Part shown: one piece after another, positions 28,291-61,346 of the stretch
Layout: each line of letters begins with the position of its first letter
Position numbering within the stretch: position 1 is the first letter of the stretch
Source of the DNA: Crossaster papposus
Lineage: Eukaryota; Echinodermata; Asteroidea; Velatida; Solasteridae
Length of the DNA: 64,000 nucleotides
Direction of reading: 5' to 3'
Assembly: GCA_037893245.1 (NCBI GenBank)
Contig: JBAIAA010000251.1
Location: 1,612,001 to 1,676,000, forward strand
The notes under the pieces: generated by a model
Told to the model about the DNA's origin: nothing
Database searches by the model: none
The model's input: the letters and a program-made list of their open reading frames with translations, nothing else
Position numbers and translations under genes: made by a program

Positions 28291-28296
28291 TTGTTG

Positions 28297-29666: not shown

Positions 29667-29880
29667 GTGGTAATAACGTGCAATGCCAGAAATATCGGTA
29701 ACATTCTCCCTGGTAATATTAGGTAATATTAGGTAATATCGGGTAATATCGTGTGGTAATAACAATGCAATATCGGAAATAACGGTTACATTCTCCCTGG
29801 TAATATAGGGTAATATCGGGTGGAAATCACTAGCGTTATTACTCGTTACAACCCGGGTAATATCGGGTAAAATGCCCAGT
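29667..29880 (+). repeat. GGTAATAT word repeats
   Basis: Variants of TAGGTAATAT / CGGGTAATAT recur at least ten times, with a longer unit of about 75 bases (AACATTCTCCCTGGTAATAT) duplicated at about 29700 and 29788. Non-coding. Confidence 0.7.
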
Positions 29881-32414: not shown

Positions 32415-32866
32415 TTTAAGATGTCGCCGGCGGCCATCTTGGATTTCTAGGTCAAGTTGATGTCATATTGTCAAACCGATGTCGGAATCGGAATCCTCGA
32501 GGTCCAATTACCCCAAAAAGTGTTTTCAGACATGATTCTAGGTGCTCTGGTTCAAAAGTTAATTTTCCAAGATGGCGCCGGTGGCAATCTTGGATTTAGC
32601 CCTCTAGCGAAAAATGCCGATATTTTTGGGAGGGATCGGGGGGCTAATTTCTTTATAAATGGTCCATAGAAGTCAAATCCATCGTCAAACCTTCTAGCCA
32701 GAGAATGGTCACGGAACTTATGTTTTGGACCCAACTGGCTCCGCCCTAAAGCGTAAAGTTTATAGCGGTTAATTTGGATAGTTTGGTAATGAATTTTAGT
32801 TAAAACATAATTGTAATGCAGTGTGCAATTAGCACTCAGTTTCAGAAAATCATATATTCAGAAAAA

Positions 32867-35800
32867 TTAAGTAGGGCGACATCCAAGCAACTCCAATTGC
32901 AGGGCAACATAATATGCCCATTCAGTAGGCTCAATGCGCACTACAGTGGTCACCACTTTCTCGTCAAACATGTTAGTGACATCGTTGGTGTCATCGGTGT
33001 TACCATTGAACTCCTGCAACATAAGCAAAGATTATACGTGTTATTGTTATTCATAAGCGTGACAATACTGGAAGAGGGGAGGTAATTCTGCAAGCTATAG
33101 GTTTCCCCGGCTAATTTAATTCACATTCACCAAATCCCACATTCATGCAGTCATTTATCATTCAATTTCAACGTTTGGTCACTCTTTGCAAACATCATGT
33201 CGACAATATTCGTCATTACAATTCAAAATCGTCCAAGCAACAGCTTAGTCGAATTTGATCTGTAAAGGCGAATATTACAGAGCCATTTTTTGGAGTGACC
33301 TAACTTTGGAGTGACCTAAATTCAATGGTAGATTACTAAATTGATTTGGTAAATTAAAAGCGTGTGATTTTTTTTCTTGCACGAAATGGAATGTGATAGT
33401 TCGTGAATTTTAATACAATTTAAAAGTTCAATTTCTAATGTTGGTCCCTCTATTTAAACCTTGTCTCGGGAATAGTTGTAATTATAGATCGAATGTATCT
33501 AAGCTGTTGCAGAAAGGCAGCGTTCAAAGATCGAATTTGTCTGAAATCAATCGATTTCAAACTTAATGTTATAATTTAATTAGTCTAATGTGTACTTGAC
33601 TCAATCACACACTAGACTAATTTAGTTAGCATAACGTTCGAAATTAATTGAATAAGACGAATTTTGTTGGCTGCCTCCCAAATGGTTCAAGGGTGCTACT
33701 CACGGCATTTTAGTGTTAATGACTTCCGACTAGCGCCCTCAAACAAATATACTGACAATTTGGGAGACCGAAAATATAGGTCAAAATAGCTAAGTTGGTA
33801 GAGCGCCGGTCCGGTATTCCGGTCGCAGCAGGTTCGAGTCCCGCCTTGACAATTTATTTCGTTTACTTTTAAATTTAAAGTAATATTCTTGGTAGTTTTT
33901 CTCCAATGGTAAAACTTGATAAATGCGGTAACTGTAATGTACGCCGATGCCTTCATTTTCTAATAAAAATAAAAGGAAACATGTTGCGGGTCAAGGCAGC
34001 AAAAAGGAAAACAATATTACCTTGACGTTTCCGGTTGCATCGGTCACGCGTTCAAGTGCAAATGTGGCCTGCTTCCGATATGCCACCCTGTACTTCTTTA
34101 CGTATCCAAAGTAGCCCCCGTCCGACCAGCGATTTGTGATGACACCAGACACCAATGTACTTTCTATCAGGTTCACCTGGATCCAGGAATTTTCGTTACT
34201 GTGCACCAAGAGGGAAGATAGATAGGAACATTGACGTGAACACGCTCCGCAATCAAACCCACGTTGATCAGAAGAGAAATTGGCAAGAAATTAGAACGAT
34301 TAAACAACTGAAACCTCTTCAAAACTTTTGATCTTTCAATGAAGTTTCAATACACTATATATTAATGTTACCGGTATTTAGTGTTTTTTAGGTTTACTGT
34401 CAGTGCTAGTTTGACTTTCCTCCGAGAAAAAGAAATTAATTTCCTTTGCTATTTTTTCTTAGACAAAATTTACTGTGCCAGAGTTGAAGAATTTGAATGA
34501 AAAATATTGTCATACTTATGCATTACGGGGGTGTCTGAAATATCGACATTTTGTGCGTACATCATTGGCGACTCCATTTAGTGACTACACTTCCCTTTGA
34601 TACCTACGTCCTTGGTATCCATACACTGTCAAGGTTAAGTCGTCCCATCCAGCCCTGACTACTGGACGCACTGATCTGATCATCGGTGATTGTATTACTC
34701 TGCATTCCGAGAGGCCCTTGGTTCGGACACACAGCTGTTAATAAATAAAATAAAACCATATTGTGTATACAAGTAAACCCCCCCCCCCCCCTCGCCCCAA
34801 CGGACTCAAAAATGGGCTCTTAAATTATGATATTATCAAATTGCCATAGGCAGATGAAGCATTGTATATTACAAAACTTTCGGGGGATGTCCATAACTCT
34901 CCTATTAGGGGGTGTCTTTGGCACCCCCGTCTCCACCCTCACCCCCACCCCCCCCCTCTCCACTCCATTCTACTCCACCCCACACTCCCACCCGACCCCA
35001 CCCTACCCTACCCCACGCTCAAAGCTAGATTTGCGCATGCAACTGAAAGCGTGAGTATTATGGCAACACGTACTCAGGCCTGAAACGTAGTCATAATGCT
35101 GTAGTGTGTCCAACTAAAGAATAGTAGTTTTGTATTAAATTGTATCCATGCCCAAACAAAAATAAAAAAAATAAGAACAATCAGCCCCCCCCCCCTAAAA
35201 AAAGAAGAAAGTCCGCCCCCCCCCACCCCACAAAAAAAAGTCCGCATCGTAACTATGCAACTTGGCCTATATCATGGTATGTTTTAACCCACATTTTTAG
35301 CCTTAAGCTGCTATCTGCTACTTTAGCCTATCACACGCCCAATGGAAGACTTTTGAGACGATTGGTGGCAGCAAACACAACGGTCCTTTTCCATTGTTTA
35401 CGCCGCGTTTAAGCTAACGTGCGCATGTTCGAAATGATTGAAAACAATCCCCCATACTCCCCCTGCGCCGCTGCGCGACGGGCGGTGCTAACGTGCCGAT
35501 GTACTTTTGTCTTTCATATTCGCACCCCCCACTCCCGCCCATCCCAATAATTCCTGGTTACGGGCCTGATTGTATTATATAACATCTTACTGATTGCTGG
35601 ACTCGTAGTGGCCGCTGGATTCTCAGGGGTTGACGGGCTCGCCGTGGTCGCCGGGCTCGCCGTGGTCGCCGGGCTCGCCGTGGTCGCCGGGCTCGCCGTG
35701 GTCGCCGAGCTCGCCGGGCTCGCCGTGGTCGCCGGGCTCTCCGTGGTCGCCGGGCTCGCCGGGCTTGCCGGGCTCGCCGGGCTTGCCGGGCTCGCCGGGC

Positions 35801-38800
35801 TTGCCGGGCTCGCCGGGCTTGCCGGGCTCGCCGGGCTTGCCGGGCTCGCCGGGCTTGCCGGGCTCGCCGGGCTTGCCGGGCTCGCCGGGCTTGCCGGGCT
35901 CGCCGGGCTCGCCGTGCTCGCCGTGCTCGCCGTGCTCGCCGTGCTCGCCGTGCTCGCCGTGCTCGCCGTGCTCGCAGTGCTCGCCGTGCTCGCAGTGCTC
36001 GCCGTGCTCGCAGTGCTCGCCGTGCTCGCAGTGCTCGCCGTGCTCGCAGTGCTCGCCGTGCTCGCAGTGCTCGCCGTGCTCGCAGTGCTCGCCGTGCTCG
36101 CAGTGCTCGCCGTGCTCGCAGTGCTCGCCGTGCTCGCAGTGCTCGCCGTGCTCGCAGTGCTCGCCGTGCTCGCAGTGCTCGCCGTGCTCGCAGTGCTCGC
36201 CGTGCTCGCAGTGCTCGCCGTGCTCGCAGTGCTCGCCGTGCTCGCAGTGCTCGCCGTGCTCGCAGTGCTCGCCGTGCTCGCAGTGCTCGCCGTGCTCGCA
36301 GTGCTCGCCGTGCTCGCAGTGCTCGCCGTGCTCGCAGTGCTCGCCGTGCTCGCAGTGCTCGCCGTGCTCGCAGTGCTCGCCGTGCTCGCAGTGCTCGCCG
36401 TGCTCGCAGTGCTCGCCGTGCTCGCAGTGCTCGCCGTGCTCGCAGTGCTCGCCGTGCTCGCAGTGCTCGCCGTGCTCGCAGTGCTCGCCGTGCTCGCAGT
36501 GCTCGCCGTGCTCGCAGTGCTCGCCGTGCTCGCAGTGCTCGCCGTGCTCGCAGTGCTCGCCGTGCTCGCAGTGCTCGCCGTGCTCGCAGTGCTCGCCGTG
36601 CTCGCAGTGCTCGCCGTGCTCGCAGTGCTCGCCGTGCTCGCAGTGCTCGCCGTGCTCGCAGTGCTCGCCGTGCTCGCAGTGCTCGCCGTGCTCGCAGTGC
36701 TCGCCGTGCTCGCAGTGCTCGCCGTGCTCGCAGTGCTCGCCGTGCTCGCAGTGCTCGCCGTGCTCGCAGTGCTCGCCGTGCTCGCAGTGCTCGCCGTGCT
36801 CGCAGTGCTCGCCGTGCTCGCAGTGCTCGCCGTGCTCGCAGTGCTCGCCGTGCTCGCAGTGCTCGCCGTGCTCGCAGTGCTCGTTCGTCTACAGTTTAAG
36901 TTATCTGTGTGCGGTGGGAACCAACGGGGTGGGTTACCAGTGTGTGGGCTGTACTCCAATCCGACGAAAGAGACTTGGTGGCATGATGATGCCAGCACTT
37001 ACGTATGCAAAAAAATATGCAAAGAAATTTAAAAAAAAATCATCAAAATTATGATACAGGTAACAATAATCGAGAAGAGTAATGCTCGATGAAAAGGCCA
37101 CACATAAACGTCTACCATTACGATTTATAATTCAATATTCAATGGGAATAATTCACAAACAAGCAACCATTACCAGCTTGCCATCTGCCCCCCAAAAATT
37201 GATAGTTTTCATGCATCTATTAAATTTTCGTTGTCTCCTCCGCAGAAGCGCTGGAATCGGAGTGTACAATTGAAATAAACGTTAAATCGACATTATGTGT
37301 GCGGTTAAAGCTTGCTAAAATAATTTATGTCGGACAAAATGGCGACAACATGTCGGACAAAATGGCGACAATTTGTCGGGCCTGAATTGTTGCACTGTGA
37401 TTGATTACTTTTTAAATGGATCTGGCCTCGTGGATCACTGTATTCCTTAAAAACAATTAGTTGCCTACAAGTGCGTCTACAACCGGGGTTTGGCCCAAAA
37501 ATATGTGATTTGTTCAGACTATTATTTTCAACTCGCGTTGGAGCAGTGACGTAAAATTAATCTACCTTTGTTGCCAACTATACGTAGTCATGTATGCAAT
37601 TATATACACAAAAACATTGTTGAAAATAATAGGCACACGTGCAACCATTCCTTTAACAAAATCTCCTTTACAACTGTCAATGCCAAGAATTCCACAAACG
37701 TACGAGTTAGTTGTCAACCACTTTTATTAACTTTATGTGGACAAACTATTAGCGTCACCTCTATCTACATGTTTTATGAATAATGACATTATGAACAATG
37801 CATAAATATTAGATTGTTTTTATGTCTAAGAGTATCATTATTGTTTTTTTTTATATAATGTTATATAATTCTTGACAAACCTCATCTTTTAGTGCAAAAG
37901 TGGGTATTCGTATTAGTCGAACATAATTCGGGCGAATTTTGCAGCGAATGAATTGCAGGGCCTTCAGTATGGGCTTTTATTCACGAATCGGCCATTGAAA
38001 GTGAGGCAACATTTTCCTTCTTGCAACTTCGGAACATAAATGACCTAAAGTTTAAGTACATATTAATACCAGTCTTCTCAGATGAATAACAACATTTGAA
38101 AAGAAACTATTAAAAGTGAGGCTATATAATGCAAAACAAGTCTTGGACTTCAACGAAAATGAACGTTTTTTTCAAACACTTTATCAACATTAGAGTATAC
38201 AGCTTTTGTAATTGTGACTACATTTAATCAAAATGTATTAAGGACCACAACTATTAACATTTGTGCATACATTTAAGATGAACTGATATAGACGTGCAGA
38301 GAAAGATGTTAACGATAAATATGATTTATTTATGACAGCTGTAAGAACTCATCTTCGACAAGGTAACGGATTTGTTTACGTATGGCCTGAGTAGTTTTAT
38401 TGCCAGATCAATATTCATGTTTTCGATCGTTGCGTTTTCGCGAAACCTATATCTTGACAACATTTTACCAAACTTGGTCCCCGATCGCTGCGATTTCGCG
38501 AGATCTATATAAGTACTGTCAATAACTCAGAACATAACTAAGCAAACTTAGTCTCTGGTCACTGCGATTCGCGAGTCACTGCGATTCGTGGCGTAACTGG
38601 TTATTTCCGCAAATAGCCAAACTTATAACGAGATTTCCGGTCGATGCGTCCCGCAAAACATAACAGCGCCATCAGCTATGATATTCAAATTCAATTAAGC
38701 GGTCTACACTTCTTTGTATACAAACGTTCCATTAACTTTGGATACAGTCATACAATACATGTTTTGATAATATTCTATAATCTTGCGGTGCCGTATTTAA

Positions 38801-41800
38801 ATCAGGGCGTTAGAATTATGTATGCAAGTAAATAAAATTGAGGCATATTACAGCGTACTACGCCGTGTGGATGCCTTAGATGTTGGCATTTATACTTATA
38901 ATGTATTTTTACACCGAACTAAGAAAGCCGCCTTGAATATACTTAAACAAAAAATATACATATACTTCAAACATTAATTTGCAAAGAACTAGCACAAATA
39001 AAGCGACAACCGACTGACAAACTGCTTAGACAAGAGTGACCGATCCAGCCTTGAGTACTTGACTATACGATACACGACCTTGTCGTCACTCAACAGTTGT
39101 CCAAATGGCCTGCCCAAGGATCGCCCTATGCCGGCCCTTTTAAACCAAAACGACCGCCTGGGGGTAATACATTACTTGAAGCCACACGGGCCTCAAATGA
39201 CTTGTTCACACGGTACAAGTATTATGTATTATTTTAGATAAACAAGGATAATAATGAACTACTGAGTAAGACGTTAACATGTTAAACTAAAATGGTTTTG
39301 AAGTAACCATTACTCCTAAACAATCTAGACCAACTGTAACCGAGTTGTTTCCGGTTAGAACACACGGGTCAGTGACGATTAAGGAGTCAGGAGAGTGTAA
39401 ATGATTTTTGAGATAATCCGGGTTTTATTGTCTTTGGTTGAGATGTGTATTTAAAAGTTAATTAAACCCGACAAAAACGACAGTCATTGATGGTGGTGAA
39501 TTCTGAAAAATATAATTAAATACATATAATTAAATATTTGTACAGTTAATTTCAATATCTTTACAAATATTCTACATTATTCAATTTATATTTAGGGACC
39601 AACAGTGCATCCCTTTAAACTCTAAAACTGATGTGTGGCAAATGTAGCTTGATTTGCGCCTTATAATAATAGTAACAAATCAGTCTACCGCTTAAAATAA
39701 AACAGATACGAACTATAGGTGAATGGCGTACCCAATGTTACGTTTCCGGCCGTATAAGGCTCAAAAGAAGAGAGCGCGGTCACTTGTATGACAAGTACAG
39801 GTTGCTGCTAATAGAAATACACGTATTTACAATAAACATCGGCGATAGATGCGTTTGAGTTTGTTATTAATTAAGAATGTAATTTGGAAAGAAACAATTT
39901 ACTGTTATAATTTTAAATGTTTGTTTGTATAACAGCCAGATTTTAGCATAGTCATTAGTTTACAACATTAGATTCTTTCCATAGAAGTAAACTATACGAA
40001 TAAAATAAAATCTCATTAATGTTGTTACAGTCAAAGCACTTACCGGAAAAGCTGTGTGCTCTACACCTTTGCCTCCGTTTGCCTGATGACAGTTGATCGG
40101 CAATAGGGATAATATTAGCCGTAATAAAGCTAAGGTGTTATCTTGGCAATTGTCGAGAGAGAAGTGTTCGTTTACACTTCCTTGAACGATCGAGAATTTT
40201 TTTTTAAAGAATGTCCGGCATGTCAACGCCCCAAACAAGAATTATATTTCGCCAATTCCGTCGAGACTCACCGAGTATAGTTTTGTTGTATTGCGATCTA
40301 GACCACCCTTAAAAGCTAATGGAACGTCCCTCATTAGCATAAGAAAAGGTTTCTTACCAAAGGTAGTGGCGTGATGATGCTGCGTTCTCCTAAGGAATCT
40401 GTGTCTTTGTTTTTTGTGTCGCGGTCTGACCACCACGATTTATTTTGCTCGCGTTCTTCACTTCTACCCGGGATTTTAGCGTTACATTATCCATATCACT
40501 CAGCATGCCGAAGTCTCGACAAAGTTTTTCGTCAGCCCCATGCACGGTTTCTCGAGCCCCTGATGAGAAACCCTCCTCGCCTCCAGCGGATATTTTAGCC
40601 ATGGCGGCTAAGGAGATAGCCCCGTCTGGGGTAAATTTGATGGACCAAGCCCAAGCTCCTCCGTGGGCTGACGGCTTTATGGGCAGTGGGCTTTCATGCC
40701 CCAAACCCCTCTCTACTGATCTGCCTAGGCAGCCTTCACCGGCTCCAGCTCCGCCTGGTACCGGTGCGCCACGCCCATCGGCTCACCATCAGCCGCAATT
40801 TGCACCCAGTATACAACCGTGTCCTGCTCAGTCAGGGTACTACTGGTATCCTCAACCTCCGACTGCTCCCTCGGGTGGTCCAGGGGCATCTACAAATGCA
40901 TTTAATCAGTGGGGCATTCCTATGCAGTATTTTCCCCAGCAGTTTTCGCACGGCGATTTTTTCGGACCAGCCTACTTTCGGAAATATTCGTCAACGACAC
41001 GCCCCGCCCATCCCTCCGGCCCCAGTACTTGCACAGCGCCCTCCATCTGATGACGGCAGCCATCTTGATATTGTCGCCGTTAGTGACGACGAATTCTCCA
41101 CTTCAACCGTTCAAACGGCTGGAACTGGAAGAGAGCCTTTTCGTCTTCCCCACAAGAAAGAGACAGGTAACCCGATCCCCGAGAAGGTGACCCAGTGGTG
41201 GGAAGAACTGAAAACTCACAAGTTGTCCTCTGAGGATTACAAAGAAGAGATTCCACCGTATAACGTGCCTGTGGACCAGGATAAATTATTCTCGGCCCCG
41301 GAACTTCCTCCCGGTTTGAACAAGGTTTTCAAACAGGTAAATTCGTCAACCATTATTTGTGACGAGAAGTTAAAAGCCTCTCATAATTACATTCTTGATG
41401 CTGTCAAACCATTGCTTCGCATTTTCGACGCAGTTACTGATGCCGAATGCCCCAATGAAGTTCCTAAAGATCTTGTTCAGGATCATCTTTCCTCGGCCAT
41501 TATTTTACTAGGCTCTGGCAGTCAGGGTTTGGCCTTAGCTAGACAACATGCGTTTGACGACATTGTTGCCCGCAAGTTTGACGTGCTGAAGAAGAATCCT
41601 CCTTCTCTAGGTGAACTCTTCGGATCATCCTTGATGAAGGACATTGAGGAAACGGAGAAAGTCAGCAAGCTGGCCTCCAAAGTCACTGGTGGGAAGTCTC
41701 TGCAGTCTAACCCATCCAAGGATAGGCGTTTCTCGCCATACCAATTTGCCACCCGATCCTTCAGATCACATCGACCATCGCGAGGATCCTTTAATCGTTA

Positions 41801-44800
41801 CCAAGGTAGGGGTTACCATGGTTCAGGTTGCCAACAGCCCAAGGATTTCCAGAGATCCAGAAATTTTAGGACGGCCAACAGCACTTTAGAGAAGTCTGGC
41901 TTAAAAAAACTAGATGCTCAGTCTTGTTTGCCTAACATACGTACCAATCCAGCAGGTCGTTTGAGATTTTTTTCTAATTTTTGGTTAAAATTAACTCACG
42001 ATCCCTGGATCATTCAGACCTTAATTGGTTACTGTTTAAGCTTCAATTCTACTCCGTTTCAGTCTTTCGTTCCTGTAACCCACGCTCCATCTAAAAAACA
42101 CGCTTCGATGTTTAACCTAGAGATACCGAAAATGCTTGATAAAGGTGCCGTTACCATTGAACAGCCTGTACAAGGACAGTTTATTTCTACTCTGTTCATG
42201 GTCCCAAAATCGTTCGGGGATCTTCGTCCAGTAGTTAATTCGTCCAGTAGTCAGTGAGAGATATGTTAGCACACGGAGATTGGATGTGTAAAATAGACTT
42301 GAAGGATGCTTATTTTTCAGTTCCTATTGATTTTGGTCACAGAAGATTTCTTCGTTTTATCTGGAATGAGGTCATTTATCAATTTACTTGTCTTCCTTTC
42401 GGTTTGTCAAGTGCCCCCCGCACTTTTACTAAGATTCTTAAACCAGTAGCTTTCCACCTCAGAGAATGTGGTATTCGCTGTATATTTTACCTGGATGACA
42501 TTCTGGTCCTTGGATCATCCTTCCATGGATGTATGACAAACACTCAGGTGACGACCAATCTTCTTCGTAATTTGGGTTTCATCATCAACGATGAAAAATC
42601 TTGTATCGTCCCTAGTCAAGATATTACATACCTCGGCTTTGTTATCAACTCCTTAGATATGACCCTCTCTTTAAACCAGGAAAAGATCCAGCAAGTCATC
42701 AGTCACTGCCAGAAGATTTTGGAAACAGAACAAGTCACTGTTCGACAACTTTCCAGCCTATTAGGCAGGCTATCTTCAACAGTACTTCAGGCTCGGTTTT
42801 TTTACCGCAGTCTTCAGGAAGACAAAATCTCCGCTCTCCGCAGGGAGAACAGTTACGAGTCCACAGTTTCTCTTTCGCAGAATTCTCAAGAGGAGCTGAG
42901 AACATGGATTCGTTGCCTTCATGCCTGGAACGGTCGGCTATTTCTTCATCTGACACCAGATGTGACCCTTCAAACAGATGCGTCAATGTTGGGATGGGGC
43001 GCTTGTCTTCAATCCATGATAGGAGGCCGTTGGACGTCGCAAGAACAACTCCATCATATCAATTACCTCGAGCTGCTTGCAGTTTGGTACGCCATCCAAT
43101 CTTTCTTCAAAGAACGGCGGGACCTTCATGTTCTCCTTCAGATGGACAACTCCACGGCCATTGCTTATATCAATCACCAAGGGGGAACTCATTCGGTTCC
43201 ACTGTCGAAACTCGCTGTCAATATCTGGGTTTGGTGTCTCGAAAGGAACATCACTCTAGTAGCACAACACATACCAGGATTTCAAAATATCACGGCAGAC
43301 ATGATGTCACGGGTTTTCGACGATCGCACAGAATGGCAGCTTCTCCCAGAAATATTCAACAAGATTTCCAGTGCTCTGGATTTCATCCCATCAGTAGACC
43401 TCTTCGCGTCTCGTTTGAACACGCAGCTGGAGACCTTTGTGTCATGGCAACCAGACCCCATGGCCTGGAGATTCGACGCTCTTCTTCTCAGCTGGAAGAA
43501 CATAAACGGTTATGTTTTCCCTCCGTTTTCGCTTCTTCTGAAGATTCTTCGAAAGATCAGCGAGGAGGAAGCTACAGTGATTCTTGTCGCTCCGGTGTGG
43601 AAGTCCCAGGTCTGGTACCCCAGACTGTTGGAACTCGCAGTAGAAATGCCTCTACTTCTTCCCAGGAGAAGGGATCTCCTTCAGCTTCCCCACGATCGGT
43701 CTCAAGTACATCCACTGATAGACAGCCTCCAACTAGCCGCATGGAAGTTATCAGGGCAAATCTCTCTTCAGAGGGGTTTTCAGACAAGGTGTCAACCACT
43801 GTCCTTGCTTCATGGAGACCACAGTCTAATAAGCAATATAATTCATCCTGGAAAAGATGGGCAAGCTGGTGTTTACAAAGGAAATTTGATCCCGTTCAAA
43901 CTTCTATAGCAAATTGTTTAGATTTTCTTCAGCAGCTGTTTGATGAGGGCCTATGCTACAGGACGATAAATGTTTATCGTTCTGCAATTTCATCGGCTCA
44001 CTCTTTTATTGATGGTTTTCCTATTGGTCAGCATCATTTAGTGAGAAGATTCCTTAAAGGTATTTTCGGGCTTCGCCCACCGAGACCAAAGTACAACTTG
44101 ACATGAGATGTCGGAAAGGTCCTCAACTTTGTTAAGTCTCTTCCTGACAATCGTCGTTTGTCATTAAGGCAGTTAACTCTCAAGTTAGCTATGCTTCTTG
44201 CACTTGTAACCGCCAGTCGCCGATCTTCCCTAACGGCTATTGACATCGATCACATGACTCGATCCACTGATGGGAAATACAGTTTCCTGCTTGTTAAGCC
44301 CTCACAATGTGCTTCAGTCAGTAAACCCTTCCATCGGATTGAGATTTCTAGGTTCCAGCCTCACAGAAATCTCTGCCCAGTCCGTTCTTTAGAAGAGTAT
44401 CTTTAGAGAACCCAATGTCACAGAGGTACTGGTTCTTCCAGAATGACCCAGCTTTTCCTTTCACATTCAAAGCCCTTCCATCCAGTGGTTCCCTCTACAA
44501 TTTCTAGATGGTTGAAGGACTTTATGTTGCAATCAGGGATTGACACATCACATTTTAAAGCGCATTCCACAAGGAGTGCAAGTACTTCAGCCGCAGCTCG
44601 AGCTGGGGTTTCATCGAATGTAATTATGAAAACAGCAGACTGGACATCAGCCTCTACCTTTGCAAAATTTTACCACAGACAACTTCCTTCGTCAAACTTT
44701 GGAGGTGCTGTGTTGTCATCGGCAACTCAACAGCTTTAAAGTCTACTCGGTGAGTCTCGACGGAATTGGCGAAATATAATTCCCCAATTACATAAAGGTA

Positions 44801-47800
44801 CTTACCTGCAATATAATTGGAATTATATAAGACAATGGAGGAGGGACTCAACCTCCCTCCCTAATTTTCTCTTCAGTTTCTTTCTGCAGATAACCCGCCC
44901 GAGTTATTCTAGTTGGTTGCCAATGATGTTTTAATTTACCGCTAGCTTCAAAAAGACACAGATTCCTTAGGAGAACGCAGCATCATCACGCCACTACCTT
45001 TGGTAAGAAACCTTTTCTTATGCTAATGAGGGACGTTCCATTAGCTTTTAAGGGTGGTCTAGATCGCAATACAACAAAACTATACTCGGTGAGTCTCTCC
45101 TCCATTGTCTTATATAATTCCAATTATATTGCAGGTAAGTACCTTTATGTAATTGGGAAATTTTAAAAGCGCCTGCTAAAAGTTACGTAACTAATTAGAA
45201 CTACGCTGGTGGCGCTGTTTAACAAGCTTATTACAAACCGCTGGCGGCGCTGTTTCGCAAGCTTTGCCCCACGCTCGCAATGTAATGTATACAAATCAAA
45301 ATATAATGTAGACGTTTTGTATGGAAGGTAACGTTTTCAAAATTTATACATAAATATGTTTATTTTCTCACAAGCTATATAAGCACACAACGAAACCATG
45401 TTTAAGAGCAATTTTTGTCACCGCACTAAATGAGAATAGTTTAGTTTTAGTAATATTTAGCGCCACAATTCGGAAAATTTCGGAAAATAAGCGTCTGGTA
45501 TTTAATCACCGCATCGTTCGGTTTTGCTCGAATTTTAGTGTTGGTCTAAATATAGTTTAATTCGTCACCACTAATAACATTTTGTTGTTATTATTCAGGC
45601 AGTGGACGGAGCTGAGCTCTGATCACAAATAAAATATATCTTCGATCGCATAATAAAAGAAAACTCAAATATCAATCATGGTATAGGTGCCGCACTACAT
45701 CTAACTTGACCCCCGAACACCCCCACCCCCTTTTGTGTCGCCTAGACACGAAGGTTTTGGAAAACAAGGTCAACAATGCCTCCTAAAAACGGTACAGCGG
45801 GTAACGTTTCCTTTAATATAGTATATATTAAAATTAGACAATGACTTAAACCTATAGTCTTAGAACTGTAACCAAAATCAAGACTTTATTATCCAGCGAA
45901 GCGGCTGTACAACGCACGAAGGAAACTAAGAAGGTGCTCCATTCTGCAGTAACCCTGGAAACCTCTAGCGGAAAACACAAACCTTTGTAACGCGACAACT
46001 CATGTGTTAAGCGATGCCCTATTAAATTAACCGACGTTTATTAAAACCTGAATCTTGCACAATGTGGGCGTGGCTGTTAAAAAACCGACTCGAAGAAACC
46101 AACCACTAGAAGCATGACTTTAATACAAACATGTTATTGTATATTTACAAACAACAAGTATTCGTCTGTTCTAATGGAGATGTTACAATGGGAACACTAA
46201 TTTCTGTTGAACCAATAACCATGATTAGGGGCATATTCAAACGGGAAGAGTATACCTTTAGAAAAATTAGTGACCAACCAAATTATTGTTCAAAGGCTGA
46301 CTTGATGTACATATATTAATGACTTAGTCTATAAGCACCCTCAGAAATTATTACTTTTGGAATGCTGTCATTTTAAAGAAAATAAGAAAATAAGTCCAAA
46401 TATGTGTCTTACAGACGCACCTTTAGAAATGTTCATTTGTAGGACATAATAGTTGGTTCGAAATCAAAATCATTGAATGTTATTTTGTCAGATTTTACAG
46501 CATTCACAGGGCTAAAACGTTGGCAAGTTAGTTGTCAAGAACCGTTTTTTTGTTATATTTAGAGAACTGTTGGTGTTTTAACCCTGCGAGCTGGAAAGCA
46601 AACATCCTTACGTTTTTCGAAGTACACCCCCCCTTTTTGTTTCACTGTAGACACAAATGGTTAGAAAACAAGGGCAGCAATGCCTCCTGAAGCCGGTACA
46701 GTGTGTAACGTTTTCTTAAATATGGTAGATATTAAAATTAGACAATGACTTCAACCTATAGTGTTAGAACTGTAACCAAAATCAATACTTTATTATTTAG
46801 CGAAGCGGCTGTACAACGCACGTAGGAAACTAAGAAGACGTAACCCTGGAAACGTCTAGTGGGAAACACAAAACCTTTGTAACGCGACAACTCATGTGTT
46901 AAGCTATGCCGCTATTAAATTAACCGACGTTTATTAAAACCTTGCACAATGTGTGCGTGGCTGTTACAAAACCGACTGGAAGAAACCAACCACTGGAAGC
47001 ATGACTTTAATACAAACATGTTATTGTATATTTACAAATAAAGAGTATTCGTCTGTTCTAATAGAGATGTTAAAGAGGGGAAATCAATTTATGTTGAACC
47101 AATAACCATGAATATGGGTTTACTTAAAGGGCTAGTATACCTTTTGCAACATCCATAAAGTGACAAGTGTTTGACGATAACAATTCACAACTGACGGCAT
47201 ACTATAACTTTGACATGGGATTTATTCTTGTATCCAGTAGTTTCCGAGCCTTGCAAATTGATATGTCGCTTAAAAGCTTTGTTTCGCTGCAGAAAATCGC
47301 ATGTGTCTAACACATGTTGCATTTGGTGATCGCAGTCAAGGTATTGTTTTCTTAATTGAGACACTAATTTATATGTGCATTTTTCAATTAATCAAACCAA
47401 GATATCAAGTGGCGCTTTCTTTCCGTGCAATTGCACAGCGCCGCCCCTGGTCTGCTCCTGGATATCAAACGCCACAAGTCGAAAACAAGAAAACGCTACT
47501 TGTCATAAGAATGTAAGCACGTGCACAAATTTCACCGACCTCGCAAAAAGAGTGTAACTGTTAGTAACCCTGGAAACCTCTAGCGGGAAACACAAACCTT
47601 TGTAACGCGACAACTCAAGTGCTAAGCGAAGCCGCTAATAAATTAACCGACGTTTATTTAAACCTGAATCTTGCGCAATGTGTCTGTGGCCGTTATAAAA
47701 CCGACTGGAAGAAACAAAACGCTAGAAGCGTGACTTTAATACAAACATGTTATTTTATATTTACAAATAAAAAGTATTTGTCTGTTCTAATAGAGATGTT

Positions 47801-50800
47801 ACAGTTGGGAACTATATTTATGTTGAACCAATAACCATGATTAGGGGTCTACTTAAAGGGCTAGTATACCTTTTGCAACATTAGTGACCAACCAAATTAT
47901 TGTTCAAAGGCTGACTTGATGTAATGATATTAATGACTCAGTCTAAGCACCCTGGGAAATGGCCACTTTTGGCATGCTGTCATTTTAAAGAAAATTTTAA
48001 AAAGAAGTCCAAATATATGTGTCTCACAGACGCACTTTTATAAACTTTCATTTGTAGGAACGATAGTTGGTTCAAAATCAAAATCATTAAATGTTATTGT
48101 CTCAGATTTGTCAGCATTCACAGGGCTAAAACTTTGGCAGGTTAGTTGTCAAGAACCGTTTTTTTTATATTTAGAGAACTGTTGATGTGTTAACCCTGCA
48201 AGCTGGAAAGCAAACAAAACTTATTTTGTTAAGAACCCTTCCCCCTGTTGTGTCATCTAGAAAACAAGGGTAACAATGCCTCCTAAAGACGGTACAGCGG
48301 GTAACGTGTACAGTGTAAAGGTTTCCTATAATATGATAGATTTTAAAATTAGACAATGACTTCAACCTACAGTCTTAGAACTGTAACCAAAATCAATACT
48401 TTATTATTCAGCGAAGCGGCTGTACACCGCACGAAGAAAAATAAGAAGGTTCTCCATTCTGTAGTCACCCTGGAAACCTCTAGCGGGAAACACAAACCTT
48501 TGTAACGCGACAACTCACGTGTTAAGCGATGCCGCTATTAAATTAACCGACGTTTATTAAAATCTGAATCTTGCGCAATGTGTGTGTGGCTGTTATAAAG
48601 CCGACTGGAAATTTAAGAAGCCAACCACTAGAAGCGTGACTTTAATACAAACATTGTATTGTATAGTTACAAATAAAAGGCATTCGTATGTTCTAATAGA
48701 GATGTTACAGTGAGGAACTTAATTTCTGTTGAACCAATAACGATGAGTAGGGGCCTACCTAATGGAGCAGAGTATACCTTTTGCAACATCCAAAAAGTGA
48801 CCAACCAAATTATTGTTCAAAATAATAAAGATATTAATGACTCAGTCTAAGCACCCTGTGAAATGGTTACTTCTGGCATGCTGTCATTTTAAAGAAGATT
48901 ATAAAAGAAGTCCAAATATAATGTGTCTCACAGACGCACTTTTATAAATTTGTATTTGTAGGACCTATAGTTGGTTCGAAATCAAAATCATTGAATGTTA
49001 TTTTCTTAGATTTTTCAGCATTCACAGGGCTAAAACGTTGGCAAGTTAGTTGTCAAGAACTGTTTTTATATTTAGAGAACTGTTGATGTTTTAACCCTGG
49101 GAGATGTAAAGTACCCCCCCCCCCCCCTTGTGTGTTGCCTAGACACAAAGGGTTAGAAAACAAGGGCAACAATACCTCGTAAAGACGGTACAGCGGGTAA
49201 CCTTTCCTTTAATATGGTAGATATTAAAATTAGACAATGACTTTAACCTATAGTGTTAATACAGTACAGCATCAGTACAGTATACAGACTTAAGACCTTT
49301 CTGTGATTATAAACTGCCTTTGTTTTTATTGTGGCTCTAAACGGCTTTCACTGGGCCATGATTGGTGATGTTGTTGTGAGGGCAAAGTCAACTAGGCGGT
49401 GAAACACAAATAACTTATTTTGTGCCCAACATGAAAAGCGACAATACCATCTCAAGCCACAAGGTGTCTTTGAGGATTACATGTAGTTTCAATGGAATTG
49501 GGCGAAAGCTTTATACGGTCCCCGTCTGGGTATGAAGCAGAATCAGTGTCAACAAGATCGGACGTGTTTTTACAACTTGGATGCTTTCCTAATTTGGATG
49601 CATTCCTAATTCGGATGGTTTTTGCAAACTCTGATGCTTTTCTAATTCGGATGAATTTGTAATTTGGATGCTTTTTGTAAACTCGGATGCTCTTTTAATT
49701 CGGATGCTTTTCTAGTTCGGATGCTTTTTATAAACTCGGATGCTTTTTTTAATTCGGATGCTTTTCTAGTTTCAATGCTTTTTGTAAACTCGGATGCTTT
49801 TTGAAAACCGAACATATTCGCAAATCAGATGCTTTCCCAATCCGGTACTAGGGTGGCCCTGAAAGGACATCACATATCACATCTTATCGCATATATATAT
49901 AGGCATATATCTGAGATGTGGACGATTTTATTGTAGATTTCTGCACAGATTTATGTGATGGCGAATATGTTCTGCGCAAATTTTTAAAAAAAGTCGCATA
50001 CTTTTATTTTAGATTTCAAGTTCTGCGCAGATTTCTCAGTACGCAAATGTGTGCGATGTCGAACGGATGGGCATCTACATGTACCTTTTCATTGCACATT
50101 TCTGCGCAGCTATGTCGCACTCACGTACAGCAGATTTATATGCAGATTTATGTGCACATTAATGTGCAATGTCAGCAAGATGTACTGTACATGTATATGT
50201 ACATGTATGTTGTGTAATAATACCTCACAATAAAAAACAGCGTCGGCCTGTTGCATAGTTTCCTAGTTAGGTTAAATGTTATAGCCCATACTGATTGAGC
50301 CATTAAAGTACATGTAGTACATTTAGAGGAAAAACTAGCGTTTTAGTTTTAAAAATATAGACCATTTTTAGCGTAACTTAAAGGGTAATATTAAAGTTAA
50401 AAGAAACAATACAATTGTATAAAAGTATGTGGTCGCAGCATGCTCCATTGCTTGTTAAAAACAATGGGGCAATTACATGTTTTCGTAGAACAATGTATAT
50501 ATATAAAGATTTTATACAGAAGAAAAGCTTAAAGGTTCTACGCAGACCTTTCGAGGAGAATTGCATGCGAGATGCCATGCACGCGGGTACGCACGCAGCA
50601 TAATCGGACGAAATATATGCAGTATCATCAGGTCCTACATCTGAAGAAAATATACCACTTGACAATTCCTTTGACAATAACTTGAGTCGACCATCGACTG
50701 AATGATTTTGCATCAATACGCGTGGCACATGATGCATGCATGCACGGGCACGCTGGTCGCGACGTCGAAGTCTTCCCGAACATACGTCACAATTATGCAA

Positions 50801-53800
50801 ATGTTACATGTTCATAAGCTACCATTATAGGGACGGGGCTGGTCCCCCAAAGCACTTTATTATTATTTTTCTCATATTAATTACCCAAAAATATAACTTG
50901 TATCAACTGAAAATCACTCAATTAGTTATAATATTTCATTTAAACTAATAACAAACACATTTCTAGGACCCTTTAAATAACGTTGGTCGAAACAAACAAA
51001 TATATAAAATACAAATTTAAAACAGATATTTAATTTCTCATTATTTCCAACCCCCCCTTTTTTTCAAAATGGAATAGTCATACTAGACAGCCGCCCCCCC
51101 CCCCCCCCCCCCCCACCCCCGTGCGATACAAATTTAACTTTATTTGCTGGCATCGCAGAAATGTGCACATAAATATGCATACAAATCTGCTGTACGTGAG
51201 TGCGACATAGCCTCGCAGAAATGTGCAATGAAAATGTACATGTAGATGCCCATCCGTTCGACATCGCACAAATTTGCGTACTGAAAAATCTGCGCAGAAC
51301 TAGAAATCTAAAATAAAAGTATGCGACTTTTCAAAAATCTGCGCAGAATATATTCGCCATCACATAATTCTGTGCAGAAATCTGCAATAAAATGTACAAC
51401 ATCTCAGATATATGTTTAGATATGTGCGATAACATGTTTGTCATCGTTCAAATTTGCGCAGAGTGCGCGATATCGCAGAATCTGCGATATGTGAGGTCCT
51501 TTCAGGGCCACCCTAGTGCCAGATTGTGAAAGCATCCGATTTGCGAATATGTTCGGTTTGCTAAAAGCATCCGAGTTAACAAAAAGCTTTTAAACTAGAA
51601 AAGCATCCGAGTTTATAAAAAGGATCCGAACTATAGACAAGCAGTCGAATTAAAATAAGCATCCGAATTAAAAAAGCCTCCGAGTTTACAAAAAGCATCA
51701 AAATTACGAATTCATCCGAATTAGAAAAGCATCCGAGTTTGACAAAATCATTCAAATTAGGAATGCATCCAAATTAGGAAAGCATCCGAGATGTAAAAAC
51801 AGGTTCGATATTTTTGACACTGGTTCTGCTTCACAGTGCTTCATATCTGGGCACCCTCGCAGCTCGCAAGATAACAATGCACAACTGCCGATATACTACA
51901 ACTTAGACACAGGAATTATGCTTGCATCTAGTAGATTCCGAGGCTGAATTGACGAATTGCCGAAACAGCTAAACAAAAAAACGTTAACGGTTACAATAGC
52001 TGTTTCGGCCGAGTTGCTGAAAAAGCTAATAATAACACACTACGTCCCTGATCCTGATGGAGATTGTTTACAAATGCTCACAAACAGGTCAAGAATTTGA
52101 CCTTTTATTGCCAACTATTACAAAAATCATCAATCTGTCTTTGGTGTCTGGTACATTCCCCTCAGTTTGGAAAGAGTCGATGGCTATTCCATTATTGAAA
52201 AAAGATCATTTAAGTTCCGCTGATTTTCAAAACTACCGTCCTATTAGTAATCTACAGTACATTTCCAAACTGACAGAAAGAGTAGTGTTTAATCAGATCC
52301 ATAGTCACATGACCACCCATTCATTGTATCCATTGCTACAATCGGCATATAGAAAAATCATAGCACTGAGACAGCTTTATTGAAGGTACATAATGCATTT
52401 TAATGAAAATTAATTCACAATGTATATCACATTGCTTGTACTTTTAGATCTAAGTGCTGCTTTCGACAAGGTCGATCATACAATTCGTTTAGACCGTCTT
52501 TATTCTAGGATCGGGATAACCGGTATAGCATTAGGCAGGGGTCAACGGGTTCTGTTTCAAGGAGCAGTCTCTGACCGGTTTGATGTAAATTGTGGTGTCC
52601 CACAGGGGTCCTGTCTAGGACCATTACTGTTCACCATATATGCTTCTGAATTATTTGACATTATTGAAAAACATTTACCTAGTGTCCATTGTTATGCTGA
52701 CGATACTCAATTGTATATGTCATTCAAACCAGGTAATATTGCTGACCAGCAGCAAGCTGTTAGTAGTATGGAGAGTTGTATACACACGCCATTAGCCAAT
52801 GGATGTCACAGAACAGGCTAATAATAAATGATTCGAAAACTGAATTTATTATTATTGGGACTAGGCAACAACTATCCAAAGTGAATATTTCTAATGTCAA
52901 ATTGGGCGATGTCAACATCTCACCAGTACTAACAGCTCGCAATCTTGGTCTTTGGTTTGATTTAAAGTTTAGTATGGCTAAACAAATCAGCAGTGTTTGT
53001 TCAATAAGCTTTTTCCATATACACAATGTTAGACATATCCGTAAATTGTTATCTAGAGACACCCTTAACATTTTGGTCCATGCTTTAATAACTTCCCGAC
53101 TTGATTACTGCAACAGTCTTTATTTTGGCTTACCAAAATCATACTTGGATAAACTACAACGTGTTCAGAATACAGCGGCAAGACTTGTATATGGGGCTTC
53201 TAGATACGCTCACGTTACCCCCATGTTACAGAAACGACACTGTCTTCCAATTCCAGCTCGTATTCAATTTAAAGTATTGTTATTGACATTTAAAGCATTT
53301 CATAACCAGGCTCCCAAATATCTTTGTGATCTATTAACAAAAAGGGCGAATTCCAGTTATTCCTTACAATCTCAAACTTCTGATCTGCTAAGTCTACCCA
53401 TTGGAAAGATGTCAAAAACACTCGGTGACAAAGCATTTGTTGTAGCTGCACCCACTTTATGAAACCGACTGCCCCAAAATGTCCGCTCAGCTCCGACTCT
53501 TGTAGAATTTAAGCGTAAGTTAAAAACACACTTGTTCATTAGTGCATATGTATAAATTATTGATTTATAGGGTATTCGATCGATCTATGTTATCGTACTT
53601 TTTATGTGTTAATTAATAATTGTATATTTTTATTTTAACCAATGTTTTAGTTGTAATGTAAGTACACTGCATTGTTATGCGCATTTGACCATAATTTCTT
53701 TTATGGAATTTGCGCAATATAAATTATCTTGGAATAAGTACCCTTTGGGAGACCATTTTGCGTAATTTTAACAACATTAGGGAGACCATGGTCATTAGGA

Positions 53801-54294
53801 AGACATTTCGAGGTCTCCTTAACGTTCCAACTACAGGAAGGAGATACATCTTTTTAACATTTAACAGTCCAGATCGATAGAGTAGGGTCCAAAATGAATA
53901 AATATGAAATTTCGTGGAAAAAGCTCTAGGTAAAAACGGGTTTGGTTACAATAAAGAATGGAAAATGTTGTGCACGTCATTATGGAGAGGTCTCCCAAAT
54001 TTTCCATTAAATTACCATTTTCGGTTATTACTATTATCGTCGTTGTCTTCTCTCTACAAGTTTTTTGTTCAGGCTTGCGAGCTATAGTGCCTATAGGGCG
54101 CTTTTGAGGAATTCTTAGTTTCATTACCAGACATAATTAATAATAACAGCACACTACGTCCCTGATCCCTATAGAGATTGTTTAAAAATGCTCACAAACT
54201 GGTCAAGGATTCGTGGAAGTACCACACGTGACAGATAAAAGTCCTTACCTGTCATTGTTGACAGTATCAACACCAAAGCTGCTGCTCCGTCCAT
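32867..54294 (-). CDS. Secreted mucin-like protein with F5/8C (discoidin) domain
   Basis: Five coding exons: 54294-54249, 36904-35591, 34734-34608, 34198-34021 and 33013-32867. Donors are GTAAGG, GTAAGA, GTAGGT and GTAATA. All acceptors end in CAG. The intron phases 1, 1, 2, 0 match at every junction, and the sum is 1812 nt (603 residues plus stop). Exon 1 gives a short signal peptide ([15 protein letters not shown]). Exon 2 gives about 438 residues of (STA)n, PAS and PATTA repeats, a likely O-glycosylated stalk. Exons 3-5 give one full discoidin domain of about 149 residues, with first Cys in [58 protein letters not shown] and closing Cys in LQLELLGC, then a stop three residues later. In the family such domains bind glycans or lipids at cell surfaces. 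Secretion is inferred. Exon 2 is the least certain coding part. Confidence 0.8.
33665..33900 (+). mobile_element. tRNA-type SINE, copy 2, in intron 4 of the discoidin gene
   Basis: A box at 33787-33804 (TAGCTAAGTTGGTAGAGC) and a canonical B box at 33831-33841 (GGTTCGAGTCC). The leader and the TTTACTTTTAA trailer match copy 1 at 466-690. This copy keeps more tRNA consensus than copy 1. It lies antisense to the host gene inside the 1007-base intron 33014-34020. Confidence 0.75.
34735..35590. other. Intron 2 of the discoidin gene
   Basis: C-rich intron: a run of 13 C at about 34779, CCCCACC-type stretches at 34920-35010 and 35185-35230. No element identified. Confidence 0.6.
35591..36904 (-). 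repeat. Coding minisatellite in exon 2 (9/18-bp units)
   Basis: On the plus strand the main part (about 35970-36885) is an 18-mer, GCAGTGCTCGCCGTGCTC, repeated about 50 times. Before it come seven GCCGTGCTC 9-mers, then about eight GGGCTTGCCGGGCTCGCC units, then degenerate GTGGTCGCCGGGCTCGCC units. Read on the minus strand this gives STA triplets, then PAS, then PATTAS, with the degenerate, probably oldest units nearest the discoidin exons. The unit is a multiple of three, so length changes keep the frame. The acceptor lies at 36905-36910 and the donor at 35585-35590. Confidence 0.85.
37000..37323. other. Start of intron-1 spacer, nothing recognised
   Basis: Lies within intron 1 of the minus-strand discoidin gene. 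AT-rich, with an A-run at 37030-37040. No repeat match was found. Confidence 0.5.
37324..39334 (+). repeat. Repeat family copy B, left part
   Basis: Uninterrupted at the point where copy A carries the 3.8-kb insertion (around 37460). Relative to copy A it has about 850 extra bases at roughly 38345-39200, containing three variants of CGCTGCGATTTCGCGA. Same orientation as copy A. Copy B lies in intron 1 of the discoidin gene. Confidence 0.8.
39335..40238. other. Segment between copy B and DIRS copy 2
   Basis: Absent from copy A, so inserted or unique. Apart from the candidate mini-exon at 40044-40082 nothing is recognised. It continues at 45160-45291 beyond the DIRS element. Confidence 0.4.
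40044..40082 (-). other. Possible 39-nt mini-exon of the discoidin gene
   Basis: Bounded by an acceptor CATCAG (40088-40083) and a strong donor GTAAGT (40043-40038). Its length is 39, and it would enter and leave in phase 1, exactly as intron 1 requires, adding [13 protein letters not shown]. The pyrimidine tract is weak. It may be used alternatively or be chance. Confidence 0.25.
40505..42257 (+). pseudogene. DIRS copy 2 Gag-like protein
   Basis: ATG at 40505 ([10 protein letters not shown]). A Pro/Gln-rich N-terminal half runs in one frame to about 40990, then the frame changes and continues to 42257. The later part has a helical [11 protein letters not shown] region and an Arg/Gly/Ser tail ([17 protein letters not shown]). 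The last 60 codons of this frame already contain the start of the RT ([20 protein letters not shown]). A deletion with a duplicated TCCAGTAGT word at 42229-42251 then breaks the junction with the RT palm. Confidence 0.75.
42258..43737 (+). pseudogene. DIRS copy 2 reverse transcriptase-RNase H
   Basis: Long open stretch with [26 protein letters not shown] and an intact catalytic [11 protein letters not shown] (about 42490). RNase H follows with [34 protein letters not shown] and [15 protein letters not shown], then the DIRS tail [12 protein letters not shown]...WQPDPMAW...FPPFSLL. The stretch itself is open. What is missing is the part between the fingers and the palm, lost at about 42240. Overlaps the recombinase frame at its 3' end. 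Confidence 0.88.
43600..44739 (+). pseudogene. DIRS copy 2 tyrosine recombinase, two in-frame stops
   Basis: N-terminal core domain ([24 protein letters not shown]), catalytic Arg in [11 protein letters not shown], His-x-x-Arg in [10 protein letters not shown], and Tyr in TFAKFYHRQ. In-frame stops are TGA at 44104-44106, where related proteins have a Trp-like position, and TAG at 44404-44406. Otherwise the frame is continuous. Inactive unless the stops are read through. Confidence 0.88.
45292..45575 (+). repeat. Repeat family copy B, right part
   Basis: Resumes the match to copy A (25632-25840) with ATATAATGTAGACG, GTAACGTTTTCAAAATT, CCACAATTCGG and ATTTAATCACCGC. Confidence 0.75.
45690..49262 (+). 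repeat. Macro-tandem array, unit about 0.9 kb
   Basis: The landmark AATTAGACAATGACTT occurs at 45835, 46736, 48351 and 49221. The landmark ACCCTGGAAAC occurs near 45952, 46844, 47566 and 48468. The array is therefore four units plus a start of a fifth, about 870-900 bases each, with the third shortened on its left. Each unit carries a C-run (ACCCCCCC..TTTTGTGT). Only short, non-shared ORFs occur. All units are in the same orientation. Confidence 0.85.
49525..51875. mobile_element. Large palindromic element of iterated words
   Basis: The left arm 49525-50220 and right arm 51130-51875 are inverted copies. Outer parts consist of CGGATGCTTTT/TAATT words repeated about 12 times (49575-49830) and their complements (51535-51800). 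Inner parts consist of CTGCGCAGATTT words. ACTAGGGTGGCCCTGAAAGG at 49848-49867 returns inverted at 51500-51519. The 900-base centre has no known gene. Two short ORFs in the arms are by-products of the words. Confidence 0.75.
51959..52033. repeat. GCCGAAACAGCT triple hairpin unit, copy 2
   Basis: Direct, inverted and degenerate direct copies at 51959, 51998 and 52014, as at 6879-6950. Confidence 0.65.
52096..53556 (+). pseudogene. CR1-like non-LTR retrotransposon RT fragment
   Basis: The RT runs from [16 protein letters not shown] through [23 protein letters not shown] (first catalytic Asp), [14 protein letters not shown] and CYADDTQLY (intact catalytic pair), to the thumb and C-terminal motif [14 protein letters not shown]...[12 protein letters not shown]. 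It is 5' truncated: no endonuclease domain. Frame breaks lie near 52365-52385 and 52790, a short deletion after GITGIAL, and an in-frame TGA at 53460-53462 where related proteins have Trp. The frame then ends at TAA 53554-53556. Confidence 0.9.
53557..54248. other. CR1-like 3' tail and spacer
   Basis: AT-rich tail to about 53740. GGGAGACC / GGTCTCCC words at 53749-54000 form a loose foldback. At 54136-54211 a 75-base stretch (CACTACGTCCCTGATCC...) repeats 52028-52099. Confidence 0.45.
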
Positions 54295-54587
54295 TTTCCA
54301 AGATTTTGGGGAAATCTGAGCACCAATCCTCTAGAATGTAGTTATCAACGACTCACACGCCAACGACAAATACAATGATAGGCCTACTATACGCACGTTT
54401 ATAACTCGACAACAATCGTGAAGCGCCTCAACTTTAAACTAAACCGAAGCTTTGCCCGATAATGCAAAGATCGAGATTTCGTTTTGGATTTATTCATCAG
54501 CGACTTAAACCAACCGATACACCAACGCGACTTTAATAGGCAACTACGCATGTAGAGCACTGAGCGACGATCAGACTGACAGGAAAG

Positions 54588-54628
54588 AGACTAAATATAT
54601 CGTCGCTCGAAATCGTATCTTATATATA
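54588..54628 (-). promoter_or_regulatory. TATA box and initiator of the discoidin gene
   Basis: The minus strand reads TATATATAAG at 54628-54619. An initiator-like TTAGTCT follows with its A at 54592, 36 bases after the first T of the TATA box. This leaves a 5' UTR of about 300 bases before the ATG at 54294, which is preceded by GGAAA. Only 200 bases upstream lies a DIRS remnant in the same orientation. Confidence 0.55.
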
Positions 54629-54806
54629 CGGTTCATAGTTAGCGTTCATCGTATATCGGCAAGTACTCAAACGTACGTAGTTTGCCACGTCAGCTAAGCA
54701 GCCGCGGCAGACCATAGACCAGGCCGACGTCATAGCCAACGTACATCCAATCAAGAACGAGCCTGCACTTGCGAGTAAAGTAGAAACATTTATAATTGGC
54801 GCAAGT

Positions 54807-59842: not shown

Positions 59843-59845
59843 TTA

Positions 59846-61345: not shown

Positions 61346-61346
61346 A

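Follow-up and report, generated by a model that had tools for sequence, protein, structure and literature searches.

Retinoschisin (RS1) consists of a signal peptide, a Cys-containing N-terminal segment, and an F5/8C domain encoded by three exons, with intron phases 1, 2, and 0. RS1 is encoded by a single-copy gene and is not known to have a mucin stalk or diversifying loops. The long form of MFG-E8 carries a Pro/Thr-rich stretch ahead of its C domains. Large, diversified families of invertebrate recognition proteins, in which the recognition parts vary, include the FREPs of snails and the 185/333 and SRCR families of sea urchins. Echinoderms have no antibodies, and sea urchins are known for their large innate gene families; those of sea stars and brittle stars have been less well explored. 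Expansion of the F5/8C domain alone has already been reported for one brittle star, Ophiura sarsii vadicola, in which the available portion of the account lists FA58C among 48 expanded families (PMC11959729). The available portions of two further sources touch on the same ground: a coagulation factor family is among the expanded, regeneration-related families of a brittle star genome (PMC11310086), and the FA58C domain is named in a figure legend about the footprint proteins of sea stars, some of which are called highly glycosylated and compared to mucins (PMC9382459). F5/8C, discoidin, and mucin do not occur in the available text of PMC11310086, and none of these terms occurs in that of PMC9270726 and PMC13409769.

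We analyzed a 64,000-nucleotide stretch of the sea star Crossaster papposus (contig C251, positions 1612001 to 1676000, in a 1.02-Gb assembly of 1,841 contigs), which we refer to as the window and within which positions are given. The minus strand of the window carries a gene of five exons, which is real and intact with one border amended from the initial annotation. Exon 1 (54249..54294) contains the ATG and the signal peptide and ends at a phase 1 donor, CAG/GTAAGG. Exon 2 (35591..36997) is in phase 1 at both ends, its start having been moved to 36997 from 36904. Exons 3 (34608..34734), 4 (34021..34198), and 5 (32867..33013) encode the first, middle, and last thirds of an F5/8C domain, with the first bracketing Cys in exon 3 and the second, together with the stop, in exon 5. 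The junction phases (1, 1, 2, and 0) are consistent, the borders are GT-AG, and the joined exons have a length divisible by three and form an open frame with a single terminal stop. The corrected gene has 1,905 coding bases and specifies a protein of 634 amino acids with four cysteines, comprising, in order, the signal peptide, a Cys-containing N-terminal block, a Ser/Thr/Pro/Ala stalk, and the F5/8C domain. The initial annotation had the remaining positions, the phases, and the divisibility by three right, and the layout that it gave (signal peptide, Ser/Thr/Ala stalk, F5/8C domain) holds for the corrected protein. It is fair to predict that this protein is secreted and O-glycosylated.

The open frame has no ATG ahead of the array that encodes the stalk, and an upstream exon is therefore required. 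Three acceptors (36997, 36973, and 36904) are compatible with the phase of exon 1. The previously chosen acceptor, 36904, is one of these phase-compatible AGs and scored much like 36997 in a simple acceptor matrix (0.14 versus 0.21). However, its polypyrimidine tract ranked only 1,605th among the 3,395 minus-strand AGs, compared with a rank of 13 for 36997, and G+C content rises from 0.22 to 0.52 across the 36997 border (60-base windows). When the starts of exon 2 were aligned, an AG was present at the 36997 position in 14 of 14 rows, i.e., in the window and in all 13 other loci. Translation from this position was open through the conserved N-terminal block in the window and in 12 relatives, all of which hence code through the 93 bases that a start at 36904 would skip. 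Because the paralogs keep both an acceptor and a coding block there, we placed the start of exon 2 at 36997. The N-terminal Cys block had been overlooked because these 93 coding bases were read as intron. The block was not found in the examined stretch in 5 of 18 sequences (L025, L026, L034, L035, and L038). With exon 1 joined to 36997, the predicted signal peptide, followed by SSC, is also better than with the join to 36904 and, by the −3,−1 rule, has a favorable cleavage site. The alignment of the 13 other loci, together with the large family described below, makes it scarcely credible that the locus is a single gene for a matrix or secreted protein with exon 2 starting at 36904. Searches for missed exons, which small exons could escape, found no Pfam family at an E value of ≤0.05 in the three minus-strand frames of positions 36907 to 50408, in intron 1, or of positions 50400 to 63901; downstream, in the three frames of positions 19302 to 34003, the sole match was a weak one to a plant Cys-rich family, below its cut-off.

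The N-terminal block of the window gene (36894..36997, minus strand) is of the short, subfamily A form and is kept in paralogs. Subfamily B has a longer form, e.g., LASCHQICFIGSEYNPQSGTPPRWFLPYKDPCECTAVRLGG..., and one version of the block reads LASCHQICFIG. Neither form matched a Pfam family at an E value of ≤10, and the subfamily B form, which was the form compared with the PDB, found nothing credible there (best E value, 2.5). Among eight subfamily B members, pN was 0.042 and pS was 0.138; among four subfamily A members, the values were 0.051 and 0.105. Judged from these alignments, the pattern of differences is that of a coding sequence under constraint.

The stalk is encoded by a tandem array (35637..36883, minus strand) of 18-bp (STA)2 copies, followed by SPA and SPATTA units. 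From 36882 onward, 51 perfect copies of the 18-mer succeed one another with zero mismatches before the array continues in 9-mers. In the homogeneous zones, ACT/ACG and GCG/GCA alternations are silent in the Ser/Thr/Ala frame and are not silent in the other minus-strand frames. Ser and Thr account for 260 of the 431 stalk residues, and as a run of Ser/Thr-rich tandem repeats the stalk is of the mucin type. Both the length and the motif of the repeat vary between family copies: the motifs in 13 copies are mostly made of S, T, P, and A, although N, I, L, R, and E are among the other residues that occur, and exon 2 ranges from 111 to 553 residues wherever the usual donor was found (12 copies), no such donor having been found in L036. 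A collagen-like reading of the array, in which frame 1 gives GEPGKPG and GDHG units over part of its length, was rejected; that frame stops at a TGA right after the array, and it is instead the Ser/Thr frame that reaches the donor in the paralogs in which a donor was found.

A close relative of the gene lies on contig C22, where 752 to 779 kb is collinear with 54.9 to 30.4 kb of the window at ~97% identity in long pieces (93.7 to 98.4% over the collinear pieces). The array of this relative measures ~170 bp, compared with 1,247 bp in the window, and the mucin arrays, with 51 perfect copies in one gene and a short array in its ~97%-identical relative, show rapid growth of a coding minisatellite. 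A loss of 8 bases puts exon 3 of the C22 relative out of frame, and intron 1 of this relative lacks a 5-kb retroelement that is present in the window. Another C22 copy, at 1155 kb, is 98.8% identical for 2.9 kb around exon 1, beyond which the match ends. Since the ~97% collinearity ends near 54867 and C22 holds two copies (756 and 1155 kb), the C22 copy may be either an allele or a duplicate. The intron 1 element (40154..45159, plus strand) is DIRS-like (RVT_1, E value of 4e-22; a match to Dam methyltransferase was weak and below the cut-off) and is probably a young insertion.

The window contains further repeats and genes. In intron 4, a tRNA-Thr(GGT)-like sequence (33779..33852, plus strand) lies inside a repeat that recurs at 510 to 682 (76%) and is probably a tRNA-derived SINE. 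Two inverted arrays of AAAAGCATCCGAATT-like units occupy 49533 to 51833. At 14984 to 19227 (plus strand), a reverse-transcriptase/RNase H-like frame, read by eye, leads into an array in which a 12-bp unit occurs 134 times and a 16-bp unit 66 times; each of the six frames listed stays open along this array, which constitutes another long, GC-rich, coding-like minisatellite near the gene. A BESS motif protein is encoded at 6238 to 6726 (minus strand; E value of 5.2e-05), and plus-strand frames near it (2614 to 4307) resemble a Harbinger-type transposase in one motif. Elsewhere in the assembly, contig C8 (L042 and L044), which exceeds 5 Mb, gave standard-code COX1 matches and looks bacterial, being either a symbiont or a contaminant. 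In the mitochondrial contig, COX1 reads TGA as Trp and has AAA where Asn, and ATA where Ile, is conserved; ND1 is encoded upstream on the opposite strand, and COX1 is followed by ND4L and then COX2 (genes named from their reading frames). These features suggest the echinoderm code and a gene order of the asteroid or ophiuroid type.

The promoter, exon 1, the N-terminal block, and the F5/8C exons all had relatives in the genome. The core promoter contains a TATA box (TATAAGATACG; 54614..54624, minus strand) that shows no variation among the 12 aligned promoters, that of the window among them. When the 500-bp promoter/exon 1 stretch was used as the query, the best 40 of 500 candidates all matched, at 85 to 100% identity (window included), and 23 of these 40 had an N-terminal-block or F5/8C match within 30 kb downstream on the same strand (hand count, window included). 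The ATG and the GTAAG donor of exon 1 were kept in all 14 aligned rows (window included), one of which had an in-frame 6-base insertion; since L010 and L039 are the same locus, the rows represent 13 distinct places. With the subfamily B N-terminal block, the best 150 of 448 candidates were scored, and all 150 matched, at 72 to 97% and with zero internal stops, in open frames of 86 to 917 residues; for the F5/8C exons, 148 of the 150 matches scored, out of 1,222 candidates, had no stop inside the match. Because only the best candidates were scored, the family counts are lower bounds and the stop-free result applies to the top part of the family; C11, C470, and other contigs look like haplotype pairs, and the gene number may therefore be inflated up to ~twofold. 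No relatives were found among viral contigs. The gene is best read as belonging to a large family of secreted proteins that expanded recently and whose binding loops diversify as described below. The initial annotation, which had taken it for a lone host gene, mentioned neither this family nor the 51 perfect array copies.

Splice sites were mostly kept among family members. For exon 3, 16 of 19 rows had the acceptor AG and all 19 had the donor GT; for exon 4, the counts were 18 of 19 and 19 of 19; and for exon 5, the acceptor AG was present in 18 of 18 rows. The exceptions were an incomplete row (L024), an AT at the exon 3 acceptor of L028, and two poorly aligned borders in the distant, stalkless L041. 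Some copies looked damaged: the C22 relative, with its 8-nucleotide deletion in exon 3; L029, with a 1-nucleotide deletion in exon 5; L028, with its AT acceptor; and L036, in which the usual exon 2 donor was not found. In L041 (C164), the N-terminal block exon is followed by the F5/8C exons with no array between them, a layout that is perhaps older than the stalked one. L040 (C632) is also a stalkless member, the examined stretch of which reaches only the first F5/8C exon, and C632, C164, and C697 carry many N-terminal-block matches with short open frames. A partial second family promoter stands immediately upstream of exon 2 in L028 (4861 to 5004) and L030 (5066 to 5209).

The F5/8C domain is complete. 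Joined exons 3 to 5 scored 57.9 bits against PF00754 (curated cut-off, 28.2; E value, 1.5e-15), which bears out the earlier assignment of these exons to consecutive thirds of one domain, and both of the bracketing cysteines that had been claimed are present, as Cys 487 and Cys 631 of the 634-residue protein. The best match in the PDB was factor VIII (E value of 5e-29, whole chain), and other relatives there included factor V, neuropilins, lactadherin, and retinoschisin. Hydrophobic spikes serve the membrane binding of the factor VIII C2 domain and do not define every F5/8C domain. Spikes of the C2 type were not found in the window copy: the insert of factor VIII is missing from its loop 1, and the sequence of its loop 3 is RWSDGGYFG.

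Alignment of the paralogs revealed four hypervariable segments, the rest of the domain being much less variable. On the minus strand of the window, these are loop 1 (34646..34660; SQGWM), which is shortened in frame relative to the aligned paralogs; loop 2 (34610..34633; LDSVWIPR); loop 3 (34105..34131), at which paralogs differ in length, in frame; and loop 4 (32903..32917; AYYVA), between EPTEW and LQLELLGC. An alignment with factor VIII put all four on its binding loops, which comprise the spikes and the loop that precedes the last strand.

Across the four loops, pN/pS was 1.9 to 2.8, versus 0.4 to 0.8 for the remainder of each exon, with intervals that are weakened by gene conversion between copies and by relatedness. 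The starting set comprised 15 genes and excluded L029 and the C22 relative, which are frameshifted, L037, whose exon 5 fell beyond the examined stretch, and the distant L041. For exon 5, 20 further places were added and L045, in which the pattern failed, was dropped, leaving 34 sequences, 31 of them distinct. The five loop codons of exon 5 gave a pN of 0.454 and a pS of 0.203 (pN/pS, 2.23; bootstrap interval, 1.48 to 3.78), and the other 42 codons gave 0.081 and 0.192 (pN/pS, 0.42). Silent divergence was therefore equal in the loop and in the rest, and replacement alone differed. For exon 4, removal of duplicates of L065, L066, L067, and L075 reduced the set from 37 to 33 sequences (31 distinct), in which the 10 loop codons had a pN of 0.458 and a pS of 0.240 (pN/pS, 1.91; interval, 1.40 to 2.86). 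Outside the loop, the values were 0.114 and 0.144, and this part of exon 4 is not clearly constrained because the interval of its pN/pS of 0.80 (0.66 to 1.04) includes 1. For exon 3 (13 distinct sequences of 15), pN/pS was 2.75 in the 18 loop codons (interval, 2.08 to 4.30) and 0.56 elsewhere. Replacement exceeded silent change in the binding part and not elsewhere, as in a diversified family, with the non-loop part of exon 4 being unclear and the loops having been chosen post hoc.

Two other approaches addressed the clustering and the excess of replacement changes. When alignment columns were permuted, the observed clustering of variable codons was reached in 17 of 5,000 permutations for exon 5 and in 1 of 5,000 for exon 4; for exon 3, it was reached in 728 of 5,000 and was not significant, a test with one window being weakened by the presence of two separate loops. 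A tree constructed solely from exon 5 scaffold codons assigned 96 replacement and 7 silent changes to the loop of that exon (per-site ratio, 3.76) and 95 and 57 to the rest of it (per-site ratio, 0.48). The p values for loop versus rest (Fisher, 8.7e-9) and for the excess in the loop relative to the neutral share of sites (binomial, 4.5e-5) are optimistic, because the loops were picked after the first 15 genes had been viewed and these genes were included in the later sets.

These values bear on whether the family has much function at all. A passenger family, amplified by transposons or by segmental duplication and mostly decaying, would suit the repeat-rich window, the intron 1 retroelement that the C22 relative lacks, and the damaged look of some copies. 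However, neutral decay should bring pN/pS close to 1, not to the values of 2 to 4 seen in the loops, and in exons 3 and 5 the ratio outside the loops is below 1; the N-terminal blocks, moreover, had zero internal stops in the best 150 of 448 candidates. We therefore consider a passenger family very unlikely.

The way in which loops are shared hints at exchange of exons between genes, as far as the aligned copies can tell. L023 (subfamily A) and L027 (subfamily B) have loop 3 in common and differ in loops 1, 2, and 4, and L025, L026, L034, and L038 have loops 1 to 3 in common and show three forms of loop 4. We tentatively suggest that the family could represent an undescribed asterozoan repertoire of more than 100 secreted, lectin-like proteins, in which four antibody-like hypervariable loops are set on a fixed F5/8C scaffold and joined to mucin stalks of variable length. 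Point changes, changes in loop length, exchange of loop exons between paralogs, and array slippage might then give different individuals different sets.

We hypothesize, with moderate confidence, that the genes form an expanded family of secreted recognition proteins whose binding loops diversify on a fixed scaffold. The protein would be secreted and extended, with a ligand-binding tip; its stalk would be O-glycosylated and would space the binding domain from the N-terminal block, a possible anchor or multimerization module. Each copy would recognize its own ligand through its loops, for example a glycan of microbial or other foreign origin, and the family may act in defense as a germline repertoire of recognition proteins. 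Diversifying selection alone does not amount to immunity, and gamete recognition, adhesion, or clotting would fit as well. The family might instead be structural, supplying a mucin-discoidin mucus, an adhesive, or a wound clot, with copies amplified for dosage and loops that vary without a role in recognition. Such a role would agree with the presence of the FA58C domain among sea star footprint proteins, some of them mucin-like (PMC9382459), and, in the available portions of the brittle star accounts, with an ophiuroid FA58C expansion tied to coagulation after amputation (PMC11959729) and a regeneration-related expansion of a coagulation factor family (PMC11310086). Dosage, however, predicts conserved loops, yet replacement exceeded silent change in the loops ~2- to 4-fold per site, and exons 3 and 5 were constrained outside them, so that we regard a structural or clotting role as rather doubtful. 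Loops could also diversify through sexual conflict or through discrimination between self and non-self. A family for gamete or self recognition would leave the same sequence signature as one for immunity, and SED1, an F5/8C protein, has a role in mammalian sperm-egg contact. However, at least 150 scored N-terminal-block matches (haplotype duplicates included) is a high number for a gamete pair, and nothing in this analysis points to the gonad; a gamete or self recognition family is thus unlikely. If selection does alter the F5/8C binding loops, as the recognition-protein hypothesis holds, the family offers a defined and testable set of recognition proteins in which the variable positions are already marked, and it may bear on sea star disease and the wound response.

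Among published systems, the FA58C expansion of Ophiura sarsii vadicola involves the same domain in the same or a sister echinoderm class; the available portion of that account mentions no stalk, N-terminal block, or loop selection, and it may or may not concern the same family (PMC11959729). SmPoMuc of Schistosoma mansoni resembles the present family as a mucin multigene family whose members recombine, but it is a parasite family and its abstract names no F5/8C binding domain (PMC2576457). Neither the layout nor the loop variation described here was among the matches listed in the open-licence literature, which does not mean that they are unpublished. The gene resembles that for RS1 in encoding a signal peptide, a short Cys-containing N-terminal segment, and a single F5/8C domain, the introns of which are in phases 1, 2, and 0 in both, and the stalkless L041, with its N-terminal block and F5/8C exons and no array, is RS1-like as well. 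In contrast, the N-terminal block did not match the RS1 segment in Pfam or, in its subfamily B form, in the PDB, and the mucin stalk, the large family, and the diversifying loops are features of the sea star genes that RS1 is not known to have. Factor V/VIII C domains, MFG-E8/lactadherin, and the b domains of neuropilins belong to the same domain family, but the present gene has one F5/8C domain, scanning of the minus-strand frames revealed neither an EGF nor a CUB domain, and the gene belongs to a large family with hypervariable loops. Like the FREPs, 185/333, and SRCR proteins, this family is large and has variable recognition parts, but the folds differ, and here replacement changes are in excess in the F5/8C loops, the domain itself being borne by a mucin-like stalk.
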